DNA of 64,000 nucleotides. Origin: Thiomargarita sp. Its GTDB lineage: Bacteria > Pseudomonadota > Gammaproteobacteria > Beggiatoales > Beggiatoaceae. Position numbers and translations under genes: made by a program. Below are positions 22,381 to 31,189 of this stretch, piece after piece; within the stretch, counting starts at the first letter, position 1; each line of letters begins with the position of its first letter. The notes under the pieces were generated by a model. It was given only the letters and a program-made list of their open reading frames with translations, ran no database searches and was not told the origin of the DNA. Where the stretch lies: positions 186,001 to 250,000 of the forward strand of contig DYRG01000001.1 of NCBI GenBank assembly GCA_020718845.1. Reading direction: 5' to 3'.

Positions 22381-22737
22381 ATGAGTGCAGCAGTTGAAAT
22401 CGAAGCAGCAAATCCTTTAATTTTCACCGACAACGCAGCCGTTAAAGTGAGTGAATTAATTAAAGAAGAAAACCAACCAGGTTTAATGTTGAGAGTATTT
22501 GTCCAAGGCGGTGGTTGCTCTGGTTTTCAATACGGATTTACTTTTGACGAAGCCGTTCAAGATGGCGATACAGTCGTTGAAAAACAAGGGGTTAAATTAT
22601 TAGTTGACCCGATGAGCATGATGTATTTAACCGGTGCAGAAATTGATTACGTTGATAACTTAGAAGGCGCGCAATTTGTAATTCGTAATCCTAATGTTTC
22701 TACCAGTTGTGGTTGCGGTTCATCTTTCTCCGTTTAA
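22381..22737 (+). CDS. erpA: Iron-sulfur cluster insertion protein ErpA
   Basis: 118-residue A-type carrier that delivers Fe-S clusters to apo-proteins. The cluster-binding cysteines are in [11 protein letters not shown] and [29 protein letters not shown] is typical of ErpA. I start it at the ATG at 22381 after AGGCGGG; a longer frame from 22312 would overlap murB. It ends before the first copy of the 40-bp terminator repeat. Confidence 0.93.
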
Positions 22738-22753: not shown

Positions 22754-22800
22754 ATAAAAAAACCTTCCTACTTGATTTGAAATAGGAAGGTTTATTTTTG
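22754..22800 (+). terminator. erpA terminator, copy 1 of a 40-bp direct repeat
   Basis: Hairpin AACCTTCCTA and TAGGAAGGTT with a 10-nt loop, followed by TATTTTTG. Bases 22754-22793 are identical to 24784-24823, beyond the requirement for a hairpin (the loop is identical too). The G+C-rich insert carrying the esterase gene begins soon after, within roughly 22860-22896. Between 22800 and 22895 I see no gene. Confidence 0.85.
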
Positions 22801-22895
22801 GGTAGTGATCAAATTGAGATGCTAATTAAATCTATAATTTACTGAAAATAAACACAAAAGTAGTGCGATTGGTGGCTCGGTTGGGTGGTGTGAGA

Positions 22896-24623
22896 TCAAG
22901 GATTGGCTGCCACCTTGGACTTGATCCACGAAAAGGCTTCCTGAACATCATAATTTCCACTGTGAGAAACAAGATAGGGCATTGCGTAACTCACGTCCTT
23001 GACGGATGCGTCATTTTTAATGGCGTAGTACAACAGGGTTTGCATCGCAAAGGAGGTGTCACGGTCAATCATGCCATGACGCACATACCAGTAAGGTGCC
23101 GTATCAGTCAAGGTATTGAGGTAAGACAGCGGATTGATGAGTTTGAGCTGGGTTGCCAAATTATTGTTGGAATTCAACAAGTATTGCGTCCAACTCATCC
23201 CCGTATCATCAATGCCTGAGCCATCGCCCGTGATGCTGTTGTTAGCCCAAGTCCATTCGTTAAAGTTGGAGTATTGCGCGCTGGCAGAGCCAAACAAATT
23301 CGTTTCGCCCGAAATGGCAGTGTTCCCAGTGACACCCACCGCGTCAAAGGCAACAACCGATTTCAAGGACTGGATCGTTGCCACAAACGCAAGGAACTTG
23401 GCGTAATCGATATTGGTCACGGTAGCACTGGTGCCACTGCCACTGAGTGTCAGCCAGTCGTTAACGATGGCTTTCGTGCTGGGTGCAACGCCCGGACGAC
23501 CACCGACGCTCAATGAAAAATTGCCGCCTAGTGCCGGAACTGCGGTGCCCTTGGCGATCTGACGTTCAATTTCAGCCTTGAGCAAGGCTTGCGTGGCATT
23601 TTTTAAGCTGCTGTCGCTTAATGCCGTGCCATTCTCCAGTTTCAGACCCAATTTATTGAGATAGGACGGAAAAATGGTTTTTAAAGCAAATGAGGCGTTC
23701 ACTTGCGGACCAGCAGAGTAAGCCACGCTGTTCAAGGAGGGCGTGTTGCTGTCGGTGCGCGTCGCGTTGTATTCCCATTCGTAACCCGCATCGGCATTGC
23801 CCAAGTTGTTGATCGGGCAGTAAGCAACGGCGGCAAAGACATCATCTTTGAGGGTGCTGGTGGCTGTAGTGCCGGAGCCTGCTATACCGGCGGCACCAAT
23901 TTCGGCTAGGAACGGTAAAAAGTCCACGCTATTGCCGCTGGCAGAGACGACAGCCGTCAAGCCACCACCCCCGCTGGTACCAGTGACAATAATGCGCTCT
24001 GCTGAGCCCGGCATCGCGCTGTCGTTGAGGCGCAAATAGCGAATTGCCGCTTTGGCATCGACCACTGGCGCAGGGGCTTTGCCCGTCCAAGTACCGTCTT
24101 CGGCGCGCGCACCTCGGCTACGGGTGCCGACGTTAATCATGACGTAACCCGCCTTCAACGCGGCACCAACGTTGTCGCTGTCGCCTGTACTGGTAAATGC
24201 CTTGCCTTCTGTGACCGAAGTTGTCACTGGACTGGCAAGCCAGCCGCTGTTGTTCACCAAGAAATAAAGGGGTGCCTTCTGATCGCTGACCAAGGCATCT
24301 GACACCGAAACAATCATGGTTTGCATGGAGTAGGGGTCGGTGAGTGCTTGGGCGTTGCCAGATATGCCGAGGGTCGTTGCGGATTTGACTGGTTTGGCGA
24401 CATAAACAATTTTGTATTGGCGCAATTTGGTGGGCACGCCATCAATAGTCACGTTGATGGTCGTGTAGTTGGTGGCATCAAATTTCAGGGCGGCGTTTTC
24501 CGCGTCAACTGTGGTGTCAACGACCGGAGTGGAGGCAGCCTCCTCGCTTGAGTCGTTACAACCGGCAATGAGTCCTGCGGTAAGCAGCGCAGCAATGGTG
24601 CGGCGTTTGAAGTGAAATTGCAT
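22896..24623 (-). CDS. Tannase/feruloyl-esterase-like alpha/beta hydrolase lipoprotein
   Basis: 575 residues from the ATG at 24623, chosen because the protein then begins with a clean lipoprotein signal (KRRTIAALLTAGLIAGC, Cys22); an upstream TTG-started frame extends to 24686. The catalytic serine is in VTGTSGGGGL, probable acid and base in YWYVRHGMIDRDTS and YLVSHSGNYDV. PLYFLVNNSGWLAS and YVMINVGTRSRGA form the oxyanion side. This pattern resembles subtype B tannases; the substrate is unproven and other esters are possible. Base composition is clearly unlike its surroundings (hand count: 37 of 60 G+C at 23701-23760 against 17 of 60 at 22441-22500), and the gene lies between two copies of a 40-bp repeat, so it looks acquired. 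Confidence 0.78.
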   Translation of the reverse strand: MQFHFKRRTIAALLTAGLIAGCNDSSEEAASTPVVDTTVDAENAALKFDATNYTTINVTIDGVPTKLRQYKIVYVAKPVKSATTLGISGNAQALTDPYSMQTMIVSVSDALVSDQKAPLYFLVNNSGWLASPVTTSVTEGKAFTSTGDSDNVGAALKAGYVMINVGTRSRGARAEDGTWTGKAPAPVVDAKAAIRYLRLNDSAMPGSAERIIVTGTSGGGGLTAVVSASGNSVDFLPFLAEIGAAGIAGSGTTATSTLKDDVFAAVAYCPINNLGNADAGYEWEYNATRTDSNTPSLNSVAYSAGPQVNASFALKTIFPSYLNKLGLKLENGTALSDSSLKNATQALLKAEIERQIAKGTAVPALGGNFSLSVGGRPGVAPSTKAIVNDWLTLSGSGTSATVTNIDYAKFLAFVATIQSLKSVVAFDAVGVTGNTAISGETNLFGSASAQYSNFNEWTWANNSITGDGSGIDDTGMSWTQYLLNSNNNLATQLKLINPLSYLNTLTDTAPYWYVRHGMIDRDTSFAMQTLLYYAIKNDASVKDVSYAMPYLVSHSGNYDVQEAFSWIKSKVAANP

Positions 24624-24783
24624 AGGGTTTTCTTGATGATAAGGATAATTGCGAAAATTCTTGCACATACACAGGAGAGCCGTCAAGCAAAGTGGCTTGC
24701 TGGAGTCCGCCCTATCAACACTTTGCCATTATCCAAATTCCATTTTAGGCTACACCCATTTTAAAACCCGCCATTTTGTGGGC

Positions 24784-24823
24784 ATAAAAAAACCTTCCTA
24801 CTTGATTTGAAATAGGAAGGTTT
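24784..24823 (-). repeat. 40-bp direct repeat copy 2, terminator of rpsT
   Basis: Identical over 40 bp to 22754-22793. On the minus strand the hairpin is followed by seven T, so it is a strong terminator for rpsT, which ends 18 bp away. The two copies start exactly 2030 bp apart and bracket the esterase gene. Confidence 0.9.
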
Positions 24824-24841
24824 CTTTATTTTAAAACGAAA

Positions 24842-25120
24842 CTAAGCGGCAGCAGCGGCGCTCATTGCTTTGATGTGGGCGCTCAAACGGGTTTTATGGC
24901 GATTGGCTTTATTTTTGTGGATAATGCCAGAGTTTGCCATGCGATCGATCACTGGCACGGCATCTTTGAACGCCGCTTCCGCAACGGTTTTATCGCCGCC
25001 TTCGATGGATTTAATGACTTTTTTGATATAAGTCCGCAACATAGAGCGGCGGCTGTTGTTGTGCAAACGATGAGACTCGGCTTGACGAGCGCGTTTTTTT
25101 GCTTGAGCAGTATTAGCCAA
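24842..25120 (-). CDS. rpsT: 30S ribosomal protein S20
   Basis: 92 residues: ANTAQAKKRARQAESHRLHN, SRRSMLRTYIKKVIKSIE and IHKNKANRHKTRLSAHIKAM are the S20 segments. The start codon is TTG after a GGGAG site. E. coli rpsT also starts with UUG, which is linked to its low initiation and autogenous control, so the weak start is probably functional. Single-gene unit. Confidence 0.96.
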   Translation of the reverse strand: MANTAQAKKRARQAESHRLHNNSRRSMLRTYIKKVIKSIEGGDKTVAEAAFKDAVPVIDRMANSGIIHKNKANRHKTRLSAHIKAMSAAAAA

Positions 25121-25225: not shown

Positions 25226-28200
25226 TTAAGAAATAAAGAACAAAATTTGTTGAAAACCGTCTGGATATGTAATGAGGAAATCATTAATCCCATCTTGGTT
25301 TTTATCTGGAATACTAGAAATGTTTAATTCTCCATTGGCTGGCGCAGTTCCTTTCGTAACAATGTAATCAAAAATACCTTTGTACAAATCATTTCCTACC
25401 TTGATATTTACAACGCCGTCGGGGCTAAATGTCAGATTAAATTGATATTTTTGCGCCCATGCTCTCCACGCATTGAAAGCATAAGCCGTGCGATAAATAA
25501 GTTGTTGTTTGCGCTGTCCTAAAATGTCGTCAAATAAAAGAACTACATTATCGACGTTTTTCAAATAACCGTTAGTGGTTATGATTTCGAATGGACGATT
25601 TAATTTATCAACAATGGTCGGTGATCCAACAATCATGCCCATTCTAAAAATTACAATAGAATCATTAGGTTGATTAATATAAACGTTTCCGTTGGGTTGC
25701 ATCAAAAATGTTAAATTCATGGTGTTGGCGATATTTGTTGCCAAAACAGGCTGCGCAGTGATATTTCGCCCTTGTGATGTGATGAATTGAACACTATGAT
25801 TATCGTTAATAATCAAGTTCATAGCGTCAGTTGTTTGGGTAATTTTAACAGGCACTAAATAAACATAATTCCCATCGCCCAACGCTAACACCATTAAGCC
25901 ATTATTTAATTGCGTGAAGGCTAAACGATTGTTTGATAATAACGGTATCTGATTGATTTGTGACAATAAAGGCGTGCCGAATCTGATTGCGTCGATGCTT
26001 AAATTGATCGCTTGAATGTTTAAGCCTGCGACGGGAATTGTTGCTAAAATGGGCGTTAAATCCGTTCCAGCGGAGATTTGGTTATTATTGGTAAATTGGA
26101 CGTTTGCGCCGAAAGTAATTGCCCCGTCAAAAATTACGCCCGATCCGATTAACACGCCGTTTAATGTGGTATTTGCTGCGACGTGGATATTTTGTAAAGT
26201 GCCGCCATTTCCAGTGATATTTCCTCTGATAATTCCGCCACTTAGCTGCGATCCCGCGTTTAAATACACATTTTCGATGATGCCCGAAGATTGGATTGTG
26301 CCGTCTAATTTTCCACCGCTGACGAGTGCATTCGTGGCAATTTGTGCCTTTGAAATCAAGCCGTTATTGTCGATTCGACCCGCTAAAACACCACCCGTCA
26401 CGCTTCCGCTGTTGCTAATTCGCACGCCGTTTAAGGTTTTATTGGTATTGTCGTAAGCTATGCTGATGATATTATTAGTAATTTCAACCAACGCGCTAAT
26501 TTGATTCGGCGAAGAGGGATCGACTTGTGTTGCAGAAACAACGGCTTGGGTTTGTAAAATGCCTGTTTGAAGTGGATCGACGCTCAAATTCCCCACAAGT
26601 TCCGCTTGATTATCAAGCCGCGCCACATAACAACTCACGACGTTGTTTTGAATACCGCACAACATATCGCCCAAATTTGCCGCCGTAAAACGCACTGTGC
26701 TCGGTAAAGTGATGTTTAATTTGACATTATCGGCATGATCGGGTCCCGCGTTTGTTAATGTGATTTTGTAAGTTAATGAATTTCCTAGCGTAATTGCATC
26801 GAACTCTGGGATTAAACTTAATTGTAAATCTGCGCGTCCTAAAATCGTGGTGTTTAAAATCGCCGTATTATCAACGAGTTGCGGATCGATTTGTTGTCCC
26901 GTGACTTTTGCGGAAAAATTCGCCACGCCTTGCGCAGTCGGCAATACCGTTATGCGTAAAGTGGTGCTTTTGCCCGCATCCAAACCCGCTAATTGGCAAT
27001 CGATTGAATTTGCTTGACAAATTGCCCCAGAATTAGTAGAAATCGCTTGCAACGTTAAACCACTTGATAATTGTGCGGTTAAATTCAAATTGCTCGACGG
27101 ATCAGGTCCCGCGTTGTGGATTGTTAATAAATACGCGAAAGTTTGTCCTGATACGGGATCGGAAGTATCTGTTTGGATTGATAATTTTAGATTGGCTTGC
27201 GGCGGACGAAACATCGCAATCGCGCCGTCGACCAAACTCGCGGTATAAATATTTCCGTCATTGCTGATCGCCATCGATCGCACGCCCGCCAAGCCGCTGA
27301 CGTTGTTTTGGGCGTTCACTAAAGGCGTGGAAGATTTGAGCAAACCCGTTGATTTATCACGACTAAATATATTTAACGTCCCGACATTGCCTGCCGCCGC
27401 GTATAACCATGATCCGTCTGCGCTTATTTTTAATTGCGACACGCCGTCCAATTGTGTGCTCGGATAACTGGCGAGGGGTGTTAAAGTGCCGTCGGATTCG
27501 CGTTTGGCGGCGAAAATGGTGTGATCGGTGCTGCTTGCGGCGTAAATGTGCGCATGATCGGGGCTGATCGCAACCCCAGACGCGCCGTTGATGACATTTG
27601 TGTAACTTTGGACAAACGTTAAATTTCCCGCCGCCGTCCGATTGAAAACGGTTAAAGCATTGTCATTTAAAGCGGTTAAGTAAAGTCTTGATCCGTCTTG
27701 AGAAATTGCCATCGCATTCACGCCATCCAAACCTGTTACGCCGTCGACGTTTTGTTTGAATGAGGCTAATCCTGTGATTTTTCCCGCGCTATCGATTTGA
27801 AATCCAAGGAGATTTTTCGTTCCCAATCCCGACACATAAATGGTTTGTCCAAACGCCGTCATCGATAATGGACCCGTTAAAAGATCAGGGGCTTTGAGGC
27901 TTTGCTGCCAAATCAATTCGCCCGAACTTGCGTTGCGTTGAAAAACTTCAATCGAATTATTAGCATACGCCGCGACTAACACCCAATTTCCATCGCCTGT
28001 TGTGACAACACTGACGGGACGTTGTAAATTTTCATGGCTAACTATTTGAATTTCCTGTAATTTTCCGTCGACATCTCGTGAAAAAGCGGTGACTTGATTT
28101 GAGTTAAACGCCGCCGCGTACAAATGTTTTCCGTCGGGGCTTAATGTCAAATCGGTCGCGCCCGCTAAGTTATTGGTTTGCCAACTATTTACATAAAACA

Positions 28201-31189
28201 ACGCGGGTGGCAAATTGACGGTTATTTTGGAAGTGGCTGAATTATTTGAAGTTTTAGTATCCGCTTGCAAACCCGCCGCGTCGACCGTCACGTCGCCCGA
28301 ACCCGCTTGTTGCGCAATCGCCCGCACATTTAAAGTAATGGTTTTCGCCACCCCAATCGTTCCAACCGAACAATTGATTTCTTGCTGATTTGTTGTGCAT
28401 GATCCTTGATCGGTCGAAGCCGCTGATATTGCTAATAAATTTGGAATTTGCCAACGCGCAAACACCGTATCCGCTTGAGCAGGTCCGTTATTGGTTATTT
28501 TTAATCCATAATTAATTTCATCGCCTAGCAAAATGCTCGTTTTATCAACGGTTAAGGTGCTTTGTAAATCGACTTTTGCTTCATTAACCGTTAAAAGCAA
28601 CGTATTGCTATTATTTGAGGAATTTGGGTCAAAAGTATCCGCCGAAACTTGCACGCTGTGTTGCAAATTCCCCAAATTACGCGGACGCACGCTAATGTCA
28701 ATTTTAGCGGTGCTTTTTGGCTGAATTTCGCCCAATAAACAACTAATTACGCCCGCACTTTCATTGCACGTTCCTTGCGTCGATAAAACCCCAATAAAAT
28801 CAACACCTAACGGTAATGTATCGCTCAAACGCACATTGGTGGCTTTTTTCGTGTCGTTGCTATTGGTGATTAAGGTATTGAAAACAATCGGATTATCGAG
28901 TGCCGCTGGATTGGGCGATGCCGTTTGCGAAACCCCTAAATCCACCGCATCTCCCGTGACATTCAAATTTAAAGTCGAGGAATTATCGGTGGGTTTGGTG
29001 TCGGTTGCGTTGGCGGTGACTTTGGCAGTAACGCTTAAAGTCCCTGATTTTAAAGGATATAATGAAAATTGCAGCGTTTGATCCGCACTGTTTTGAGCGA
29101 ACGCGCCCATCGCACATTTGAATTGTCCCGCCGCGATTTCGACGCAAAGCTTTGATGGATCAGCAATATTTACGCTGGTGGTTGCCCCTAAAAATCGTGC
29201 GCCATCGCTTGGCGTAAAAGTCAAACCCACAGTCACATTTGAAGTGTCGTGGGTGCTGATATTTGCAAAAATCGTTGTAAAAACAGAGCTTTGCCCCAAA
29301 TCGACCGCTAACGGTTTTGCCTCGAATTTTTTGATCGCCAAATCAGTGTACATCGGCTGAATTTTCACGGTGCTCGACGCAGAATTGTTTGCAGAATCAG
29401 GGTCTTTGGTCGATGAGCTTACGTTTGCCGAGGTTATTAAATCAATCACTGCGGTCGGGGTAATTAAATACACCGTGACTTTCGCAGTGGCTTTGCTGGT
29501 GATCAAACCCAAACTGCATTTCAAATTCGGAGCGGTGTAAGCGCATGATCCAGATGAAGTTTCGACGCGAGAAAACACTGCTGTATCAGGGAGTTGCATA
29601 TTTAAAACGCTTAAAGTCGCATCGTCTGCGCCCGCGTTCGTGACGGTTGCGGTATAAACTAAGTCACTGTTTGAATTCACTAAAGTTGCCGACGGCGTTA
29701 ATGTCACGCTTAAATCGGCTTGTAAAATCTTCGCTAATACATTGATTGAACTGGTATTTTTATTATTTAAAGAATTGCTATCTTGTTCGGTGCTCGTTAC
29801 GCTTGGGTTGTGATTCAATAACCCCGCAACAGTTGGTGTTAAAGTCAAATTTACCGTCGCGGTTGCATTTGCCGCTAAAGTGCCGACATTGCAAGTGATT
29901 GTATTTGAAGCATTTGTGCACGTTCCTTGCGAAGCCGTCGCCGAATTCACCGTCACGCCCGATGGAATTACGTCAGTTAAAATAACGTTCGTGGCATTAT
30001 CAGTTCCCACATTTTTAATCGAAATTTGTGAGGAAAATGAAGTATTTATCAAACCTTCGGCGGGCAACGTTTGAGAAACACTTAAATCAATCACTTTGGT
30101 GCTAAAAACCCCTAAACCACTGCTATTTAAACCCGTCGCGTATAAATTCAATCCATCATAACTCATTGAAATATCACTAATTCCTGAAATGCCACTCACG
30201 CCATTTACGCCGTCTTGCAACATCATTTTTTTGACCAAACCCGTTGAATTTATTGCAAATTCTGTTAAAGCGTGTTGATTGCTTGCTGCCGCGTACAATT
30301 TTGAATTATCGGGACTAATCACCAACGTTCGCACGCCCAACAAACCATCATCAAAATAACTCTTTGAAAAGGTTAAAGTTCCTGTGGTCACATCTCGATT
30401 AAATTCCGCAATCGCATTGTCAGTATTTGCTGCAACATAAACCTTTGATCCGCTTGGATTTATGATTACATCGTACGCGCCGCTTAAACCCGTTATCTCA
30501 TTGATTCCATTGGTATAAGTTGCCATTAATGTCAAACGTCCCGATGCCGCGTCACGACTAAATAGTTGAACCGCATTATCATTGCTGGCGGTGGTGTAAA
30601 GATGTTTATTATCGGCACTTAATGCGGTCGATGTTGCATTAGAAACGCTTTTAATTTCAACGAATTGCAATAATCCAGAAGTTACATCTCGACTAAAAAC
30701 CACAATTCCCAAACTTGAGGTTGCGTATAAAAATTTACTATCGAATGAAAGGCTTAGAGAATTGACTTGCGTTAAACCGTCGGCATTTCGAACGCCATTT
30801 TTGAGCAATTCGACAAAAGTTAATTTCCCATTCGTTGCTCGACTAAATACTGAAATACCATTTGCAAAGACATTTGCCGCATAAACAAATTTGCCGTCTG
30901 AAGAGATTAATAAATTATTGATTCCATTTAAGTTTATTGCATTTGTATAGGTTTCAACAAAGGTTAATTTCCCAGTGCTTTGGCGAGAGAAAGTGACGAT
31001 ACTTTGTTCGCTAAATCCCGCCGCATACACTGATGAACCGTCGGGCGAAATGACGGTCGACACCGCTCCTCCTAACCCAATGATTTCATTAGTATTATTG
31101 AGTTGAGATTCGATAAAACCAATCGCCTGAGATTGCGCGCTGCTCAAAAAAAATGCCCAAGTTAGGGCATAAAATATTTTTAAAATCAT
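25226..31189 (-). CDS. Giant secreted beta-propeller/DUF11 repeat protein, last gene of the minor pilin operon
   Basis: 1987 residues with a signal peptide (FYALTWAFFLSSAQSQA). Domain order: beta-propeller 1 (about 23-365) of blades such as ISPDGSSVYAAG and LTFVETYTN followed by VFSR; five DUF11-type immunoglobulin-like repeats starting near 367, 491, 614, 748 and 872, each with a DLxV(S) strand and a Cys pair (GTC...ITC); propeller 2 (about 997-1335) of the same type; two more DUF11 repeats; a Gly/Asn-rich repetitive stretch (NSGSVTGGVLAGRIDNNGLI) resembling a beta-helix or bactofilin-like fold; and a C-terminal domain of about 300 residues I do not recognise. No LPxTG, autotransporter barrel or T1SS repeat was seen. 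It starts 4 bp after pilE. It could act as a pilus-tip adhesin, in the place of PilY1; that is inference. Confidence 0.75.
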   Translation of the reverse strand: MILKIFYALTWAFFLSSAQSQAIGFIESQLNNTNEIIGLGGAVSTVISPDGSSVYAAGFSEQSIVTFSRQSTGKLTFVETYTNAINLNGINNLLISSDGKFVYAANVFANGISVFSRATNGKLTFVELLKNGVRNADGLTQVNSLSLSFDSKFLYATSSLGIVVFSRDVTSGLLQFVEIKSVSNATSTALSADNKHLYTTASNDNAVQLFSRDAASGRLTLMATYTNGINEITGLSGAYDVIINPSGSKVYVAANTDNAIAEFNRDVTTGTLTFSKSYFDDGLLGVRTLVISPDNSKLYAAASNQHALTEFAINSTGLVKKMMLQDGVNGVSGISGISDISMSYDGLNLYATGLNSSGLGVFSTKVIDLSVSQTLPAEGLINTSFSSQISIKNVGTDNATNVILTDVIPSGVTVNSATASQGTCTNASNTITCNVGTLAANATATVNLTLTPTVAGLLNHNPSVTSTEQDSNSLNNKNTSSINVLAKILQADLSVTLTPSATLVNSNSDLVYTATVTNAGADDATLSVLNMQLPDTAVFSRVETSSGSCAYTAPNLKCSLGLITSKATAKVTVYLITPTAVIDLITSANVSSSTKDPDSANNSASSTVKIQPMYTDLAIKKFEAKPLAVDLGQSSVFTTIFANISTHDTSNVTVGLTFTPSDGARFLGATTSVNIADPSKLCVEIAAGQFKCAMGAFAQNSADQTLQFSLYPLKSGTLSVTAKVTANATDTKPTDNSSTLNLNVTGDAVDLGVSQTASPNPAALDNPIVFNTLITNSNDTKKATNVRLSDTLPLGVDFIGVLSTQGTCNESAGVISCLLGEIQPKSTAKIDISVRPRNLGNLQHSVQVSADTFDPNSSNNSNTLLLTVNEAKVDLQSTLTVDKTSILLGDEINYGLKITNNGPAQADTVFARWQIPNLLAISAASTDQGSCTTNQQEINCSVGTIGVAKTITLNVRAIAQQAGSGDVTVDAAGLQADTKTSNNSATSKITVNLPPALFYVNSWQTNNLAGATDLTLSPDGKHLYAAAFNSNQVTAFSRDVDGKLQEIQIVSHENLQRPVSVVTTGDGNWVLVAAYANNSIEVFQRNASSGELIWQQSLKAPDLLTGPLSMTAFGQTIYVSGLGTKNLLGFQIDSAGKITGLASFKQNVDGVTGLDGVNAMAISQDGSRLYLTALNDNALTVFNRTAAGNLTFVQSYTNVINGASGVAISPDHAHIYAASSTDHTIFAAKRESDGTLTPLASYPSTQLDGVSQLKISADGSWLYAAAGNVGTLNIFSRDKSTGLLKSSTPLVNAQNNVSGLAGVRSMAISNDGNIYTASLVDGAIAMFRPPQANLKLSIQTDTSDPVSGQTFAYLLTIHNAGPDPSSNLNLTAQLSSGLTLQAISTNSGAICQANSIDCQLAGLDAGKSTTLRITVLPTAQGVANFSAKVTGQQIDPQLVDNTAILNTTILGRADLQLSLIPEFDAITLGNSLTYKITLTNAGPDHADNVKLNITLPSTVRFTAANLGDMLCGIQNNVVSCYVARLDNQAELVGNLSVDPLQTGILQTQAVVSATQVDPSSPNQISALVEITNNIISIAYDNTNKTLNGVRISNSGSVTGGVLAGRIDNNGLISKAQIATNALVSGGKLDGTIQSSGIIENVYLNAGSQLSGGIIRGNITGNGGTLQNIHVAANTTLNGVLIGSGVIFDGAITFGANVQFTNNNQISAGTDLTPILATIPVAGLNIQAINLSIDAIRFGTPLLSQINQIPLLSNNRLAFTQLNNGLMVLALGDGNYVYLVPVKITQTTDAMNLIINDNHSVQFITSQGRNITAQPVLATNIANTMNLTFLMQPNGNVYINQPNDSIVIFRMGMIVGSPTIVDKLNRPFEIITTNGYLKNVDNVVLLFDDILGQRKQQLIYRTAYAFNAWRAWAQKYQFNLTFSPDGVVNIKVGNDLYKGIFDYIVTKGTAPANGELNISSIPDKNQDGINDFLITYPDGFQQILFFIS

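Follow-up and report, generated by a model that had tools for sequence, protein, structure and literature searches.

A recently acquired tannase gene between two copies of a predicted terminator hairpin in a Thiomargarita genome

Cis-mobilizable elements are flanked by attL and attR and hold their cargo between direct repeats without an integrase, and the hairpins described here are shorter than the attC sites of integron cassettes. Palindromes can also receive insertion sequences. As passages of PMC1525189 describe, insertion sequences that enter REP palindromes split the palindrome and are flanked by direct repeats of 2, 3 or 6 bp or by none. MITEs have been reported in Ca. Thiomargarita nelsonii (in an excerpt of PMC4853749), and for tannases an excerpt of PMC8958541 assigns roles to a Ser-Asp-His triad and to a Lys-Glu-Asp set that binds gallate. 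A literature search covering titles and the openings of abstracts returned no report of a gene between duplicated terminators.

We analysed a window of 64,000 nucleotides (positions 186,001 to 250,000 of contig DYRG01000001.1, Thiomargarita sp.) in which a gene of foreign composition lies between two hairpins, H1 and H2. The features of the locus are as follows, G018 being a genome from another genus of the same family that carries a close relative of the gene.

22381 to 22737, plus strand: erpA-like gene (Fe-S_biosyn, Pfam PF01521, 2.3e-20), the left neighbour
22754 to 22799, no strand: H1, of which 22754-22793 is identical to H2 and the whole agrees with the H2 palindrome at 44 of 46 positions
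22801 to 22860, plus strand: truncated MITE that keeps the initial 60 bp of an element of 93 bp (inverted ends GGTAGTGATCAAA) and lacks its right end
22861 to 22895, minus strand: G+C-rich 3′ flank of the tannase gene (GC 0.57), in which the terminator of the G018 copy is missing
22896 to 24623, minus strand: gene for a predicted subtype B tannase and lipoprotein of 575 amino acids (NCBIfam NF041556, PDB 6yq4, aligned residues, Pfam BD-FAE)
24624 to 24783, minus strand: upstream region of the tannase gene (GC 0.44), with no convincing match to G018 past about 14 bp
24784 to 24829, no strand: H2, a near-perfect palindrome of 46 bp at the terminator position of rpsT (minus strand)
24842 to 25117, minus strand: rpsT, ribosomal protein S20 (Pfam PF01649, 3.2e-28), the right neighbour

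An earlier note on this DNA had described the gene as a lipoprotein esterase. The lipoprotein signal stands, with Cys22 in a lipobox, and the esterase can now be placed more narrowly as a subtype B tannase of predicted activity. The protein matches NF041556 over its full length with 352 bits against a curated cut-off of 300, and its nearest solved structures are tannases (PDB 6yq4 at 1.4e-58, also 4j0g and others). In the alignment the catalytic positions fall on S217, D520 and H554, with GTSGG at 215-219 as the GxSxG motif, and the gallate-binding positions on K421, E440 and D522. The 575 codons have a GC of 0.532 and a GC3 of 0.606, compared with 0.375 ± 0.052 and 0.295 ± 0.088 in the 151 mechanically called ORFs of at least 200 amino acids on the contig, which bears out the view that the insert is dominated by one gene of deviant composition.

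The tannase is rare among the genomes compared. Matches were found in three of 40 genomes with the source genome included, namely the source itself, G018 (94% amino acid identity) and G010 (37%). In a sample of 369 genomes of the class the source genome alone gave a match of a significance beyond 1e-100; G018 gave no row there and evidently lies outside that sample. At the DNA level the G018 copy is identical at 1642 of 1755 positions over 22883-24637 (94%), a stretch comprising the gene and around 13 bases on either side. The two genes differ at 31 of 575 amino acids and 108 of 1728 nucleotides, giving a dN of 0.03 and a dS of 0.16-0.19, compared with a dS of 1.1 for rpsT; for erpA dS was not computable, which we read as saturation. 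GC3 is 0.61 in both copies. In G018 the gene is embedded in a 1.18-Mb contig at C11:159414, with rpsT far off at C11:42495 and erpA on another contig. A terminator-like hairpin that directly follows the stop codon in G018 is absent from the window copy, and no repeats like H1 and H2 surround the G018 gene. Beyond about 14 bp, any homology between the flanks of the two copies is suggestive at best, since shuffling gave equally good scores in seven of 300 trials with the 3′ flank and in 11 of 300 with the 5′ flank. The G018 gene too adjoins a small palindromic element, upstream of it, whose sequence is unrelated to H1 and H2 (L068:9047-9176, a 130-bp inverted-repeat element with 25-nt arms that are 92% complementary).

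In a tree of 33 sequences, which supplies the phylogeny proposed earlier, the source and G018 tannases group at 100/100. They fall with genes of Burkholderiales, Oceanospirillaceae, one unplaced bacterium and one Holophagaceae, although the fork that holds this wider group is weakly supported. Across 30 named genome loci, no homologue exceeds 68% identity. Among 29 plasmid records the top match, on an Acidovorax plasmid, is again at 68%, and a single phage record gave 29%, hence these records hold no close donor. The claim that the gene is foreign is thus upheld. Given a copy in G018 that is 94% identical in nucleotides and sits at an unrelated site, and a tannase dS that is low beside that of rpsT and the saturated erpA, recent horizontal acquisition of the gene is well supported; this evidence concerns the transfer itself rather than its direction or donor.

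Sequence comparison confirmed that 22754-22793 and 24784-24823 are identical over 40 bp, loop included. H1 lies 3′ of erpA and, on the opposite strand, downstream of the tannase gene. The repeat ends exactly at the left end of the palindrome, and when the next six bases of H1 are included the agreement with the H2 palindrome is 44 of 46, so the copied unit is approximately the complete palindrome. A chance origin of the pair was ruled out, since the 34-nt hairpin core occurs twice in the window with up to three mismatches against an expectation of 0.00 from 100 shuffles. At the same tolerance the hairpin sequence has two copies in the genome of 2,979,191 bases, H1 and H2 themselves, and a search of the other 41 family genomes gave no copy of the repeat, which disposes of the possibility, raised earlier as a refutation, that it is a common genomic repeat. 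A phage-borne hairpin was likewise ruled out, the exact 28-base core occurring in none of the viral contigs. Among 14 perfect G+C-containing hairpins with a stem of at least 9 in the contig of 250,891 bases, H1 and H2 are the sole pair with a common 14-mer. Two further sets of direct repeats were seen on contig C57 of the source genome (G000) outside the window: repeats of 51 and 126 bp at a spacing of 3166 (77856-81074), which suggest a duplicated gene, and a 110-bp repeat at 113649 and 115723.

Both hairpins have the features of intrinsic terminators, namely a position 3′ of a gene and a G+C-containing stem-loop with a run of T after it, and they begin 16 bases past the stop codon of erpA (H1) and 18 past that of rpsT (H2). 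The predicted RNA fold of H1 has −15.0 kcal/mol on the plus strand (z −3.8) and −17.8 kcal/mol on the minus strand (z −6.3), and that of H2 has −23.7 kcal/mol on the minus strand (z −9.0). A terminator consensus scan reported, of the two, H1 on the minus strand only. Hairpins of unrelated sequence lie directly downstream of erpA or rpsT in several relatives within the subset examined (13 erpA and 13 rpsT loci), and H1 and H2 therefore occupy natural terminator positions. We infer that one bidirectional intrinsic terminator is present here in two copies.

The earlier note had pictured erpA and rpsT, without the insert, as convergent genes sharing a single hairpin. The comparison of relatives did not bear this out. 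The two genes are adjacent in none of the 35 other genomes that have both, all of them of other genera, and no empty site with a single hairpin was found among them. In three of the 35 the genes share a contig at a distance of more than 90 kb, and in 32 they are on separate contigs, where contig breaks may mask a few cases. In four of nine relatives inspected closely rpsT faces another gene, of around 450 residues. The junction is thus specific to this lineage, and hence the duplication of the hairpin may date from the rearrangement that joined erpA and rpsT rather than from the arrival of the tannase. On the far side of rpsT in the window, 25226-31189 encodes a protein of 1987 amino acids with seven DUF11 stretches and matches to lactonase-type propellers.

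The insert was said to contain no transposase or integrase. This holds for genes, but the remnant of a MITE lies just inside the left hairpin. The 93-bp family to which it belongs has inverted ends GGTAGTGATCAAA and many near-identical non-coding copies, with 22 matches in the source genome against two short ones (21 and 36 bp) in the 41 further genomes of the family; judged by these searches it is private to the source genome. An exact 8-bp target duplication flanks four of the 16 complete copies and none of the other 12, the remaining six of the 22 matches having been omitted as incomplete. The window copy keeps its left end only and is broken in mid-element, at a unique point (22860), where the 3′ flank of the tannase begins. 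With a single intact flank it has no readable target duplication by which its insertion could be dated. The same end is also found on a longer element, which occurs at eight places, several of them at contig ends, and is probably the parent insertion sequence, recognised here from its ends with no transposase readable. The family, of about 20 copies, and this longer relative are found for example at L077 1501-1600 and at the contig ends of C24, C30, C78 and C57:250839, and they break the assembly at several contig ends. A preference of the MITE for terminators was unsupported, as one of the 16 complete copies has a hairpin no more than 60 bp away.

The truncation of the MITE at the junction with the tannase flank means that the left edge is remodelled and carries no clean target duplication, and that the locus arose in no fewer than two events. 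Together with the loss of a terminator of the G018 type, it points to a deletion or illegitimate join as having shaped this edge. Insertion by an insertion sequence or composite transposon was rejected because a MITE end is found at the left edge only, with no element end or 8-bp repeat at 24784. Transposition from the MITE end, whether composite or one-ended, was rejected as well, neither the 8-bp left flank nor an element end being found at the right edge by eye or by repeat search. An integron cassette was dismissed by reasoning, there being one hairpin pair, no integrase and hairpins shorter than attC sites.

The reading that we tentatively prefer, at a little less than an even chance, is ordinary horizontal transfer combined with recombination or break repair at a palindromic terminator, leaving one palindrome on each side, with insertion of the MITE and a deletion before or after. 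A horizontally acquired subtype B tannase would have lodged in the lineage-specific erpA-rpsT junction when a foreign fragment was joined at the terminator, and repair synthesis would have left a palindrome on either side of it. The resident MITE would have inserted beside H1 before or after the tannase arrived, and a deletion that began within the MITE and reached into the tannase 3′ flank would then have removed the right end of the MITE and any terminator that the gene had brought. With its own terminator lost in this way the tannase may depend on H1, which would terminate erpA in one direction and the tannase in the opposite one, while H2 would still end rpsT. This reading fits the occurrence of the hairpins here alone and the near coextension of the copied unit with the 46-bp palindrome of H2; against it stand the absence of erpA-rpsT adjacency from all 35 relatives and the lack of any direct trace of repair synthesis. 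The order of events and repair as the copying step are what we infer from the arrangement. The earlier claim that the gene entered and duplicated the terminator without a known mobile element accordingly survives in part: the gene is foreign and the copy is of palindrome size, but a MITE remnant is present and the left edge is remodelled.

The main rival separates the hairpins from the tannase. The 46-bp terminator hairpin would have copied itself beside erpA, in a REP-like manner or by template switching, and the tannase would have arrived between the copies independently. The repeat does stop exactly at the left end of the palindrome and span 44 of its 46 positions, and relatives contain five hairpin pairs with a common 16-mer (288 hairpins at 109 loci), among them the erpA terminator of G003 (L175:6445-6477), whose near-identical second copy (1449-1481) lies about 5 kb off. 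Of those five pairs, however, two (L177) share a spacing of 474 bp, a hint of ordinary tandem duplication, and a third (L068) represents the two arms of a larger inverted repeat. Since the only copies of the hairpin in the genome are the pair on either side of the single foreign gene, and the search of the 41 remaining family genomes gave none, we consider this course of events rather unlikely. The half-palindrome motif of the G003 erpA terminator is also present in the source genome (L190). Alternatively, an island resembling a cis-mobilizable element may once have stood here and been deleted, leaving H1 and H2 as its attL and attR, with a core of 11 + 6 + 11 bp; the deletion to which the broken MITE testifies would have taken the integrase and most of the cargo. 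Such a relic would agree with a palindromic core divided by a short spacer within direct repeats of 40-46 bp, with the single acquired gene that they enclose and with the broken element at 22860. Yet terminators are palindromic anyway, so the resemblance of the core to an att site is weak, and considered as a dif or Xer site the core is presumably unlike dif. No integrase was found in or beside the 2-kb insert (ORFs of the insert, with four proteins scanned against Pfam), the core is absent from the viral contigs and the other 41 family genomes, and the G018 tannase has no such flanking repeats; a relic of this kind is decidedly unlikely.

Homologous recombination over 40-46 bp with a circular or linear donor that already bore the hairpin would leave exactly two identical direct copies, and the private MITE in the insert would suit a donor of the same species. 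No donor with both hairpin and tannase appeared among the family genomes, named loci, viral contigs, plasmid records and phage records searched, and we regard this route as quite improbable. The palindromic terminator may also have been the insertion target in a stricter sense, being extruded and cut, joined to the foreign gene and re-copied on both strands, a form of gene capture free of transposase that we hold to be highly improbable. If it did operate, the newcomer would arrive insulated by a terminator on each side. An artefact or chimera of assembly at the repeats is scarcely credible. The MITE family and its longer relative do break the assembly, with several copies at contig ends, but the join leaves the MITE at a unique point in mid-element and not at the edge of a repeat, and a repeat of 40 bp is short for modern assemblers. 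The presence of the tannase inside the 1.18-Mb contig of G018 further shows that the gene is real in the family.

Collectively our data give a clear-cut example of a putative tannin-degrading gene recently passed between lineages, here two genera of one family, whose composition is yet unadapted. Nothing about the duplicated hairpin points to a novel type of mobile element. Were terminators to serve repeatedly as capture sites and to duplicate upon insertion, the entry of single genes with no mobile element involved and with their neighbours left undisturbed would be explained; a single locus in a single genome does not establish terminator capture as a general route.

In comparison with known systems, the locus resembles cis-mobilizable elements in holding cargo between direct repeats without an integrase, but there is no integrase-bearing relative with the repeat of H1 and H2, and the cargo is tiny, a single gene. 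The protein is like subtype B tannases (NF041556; PDB 6yq4 and 4j0g) in its full-length family match and its aligned triad and gallate site, and differs in bearing a predicted lipoprotein signal; hydrolysis of gallate esters is predicted from sequence. The MITE family is likened to bacterial MITEs, such as those of Ca. Thiomargarita nelsonii in the excerpted part of PMC4853749, by general features, being short and multi-copy with inverted ends and, in the four complete copies noted above, an 8-bp target duplication, whereas the window copy is truncated and the parent insertion sequence is known from its ends alone. With the insertion sequences that target REP palindromes, as passages of PMC1525189 present them, the locus shares a palindromic extragenic sequence as the insertion site; in contrast to these, no insertion sequence lies within the palindrome here, which has instead been duplicated nearly whole.
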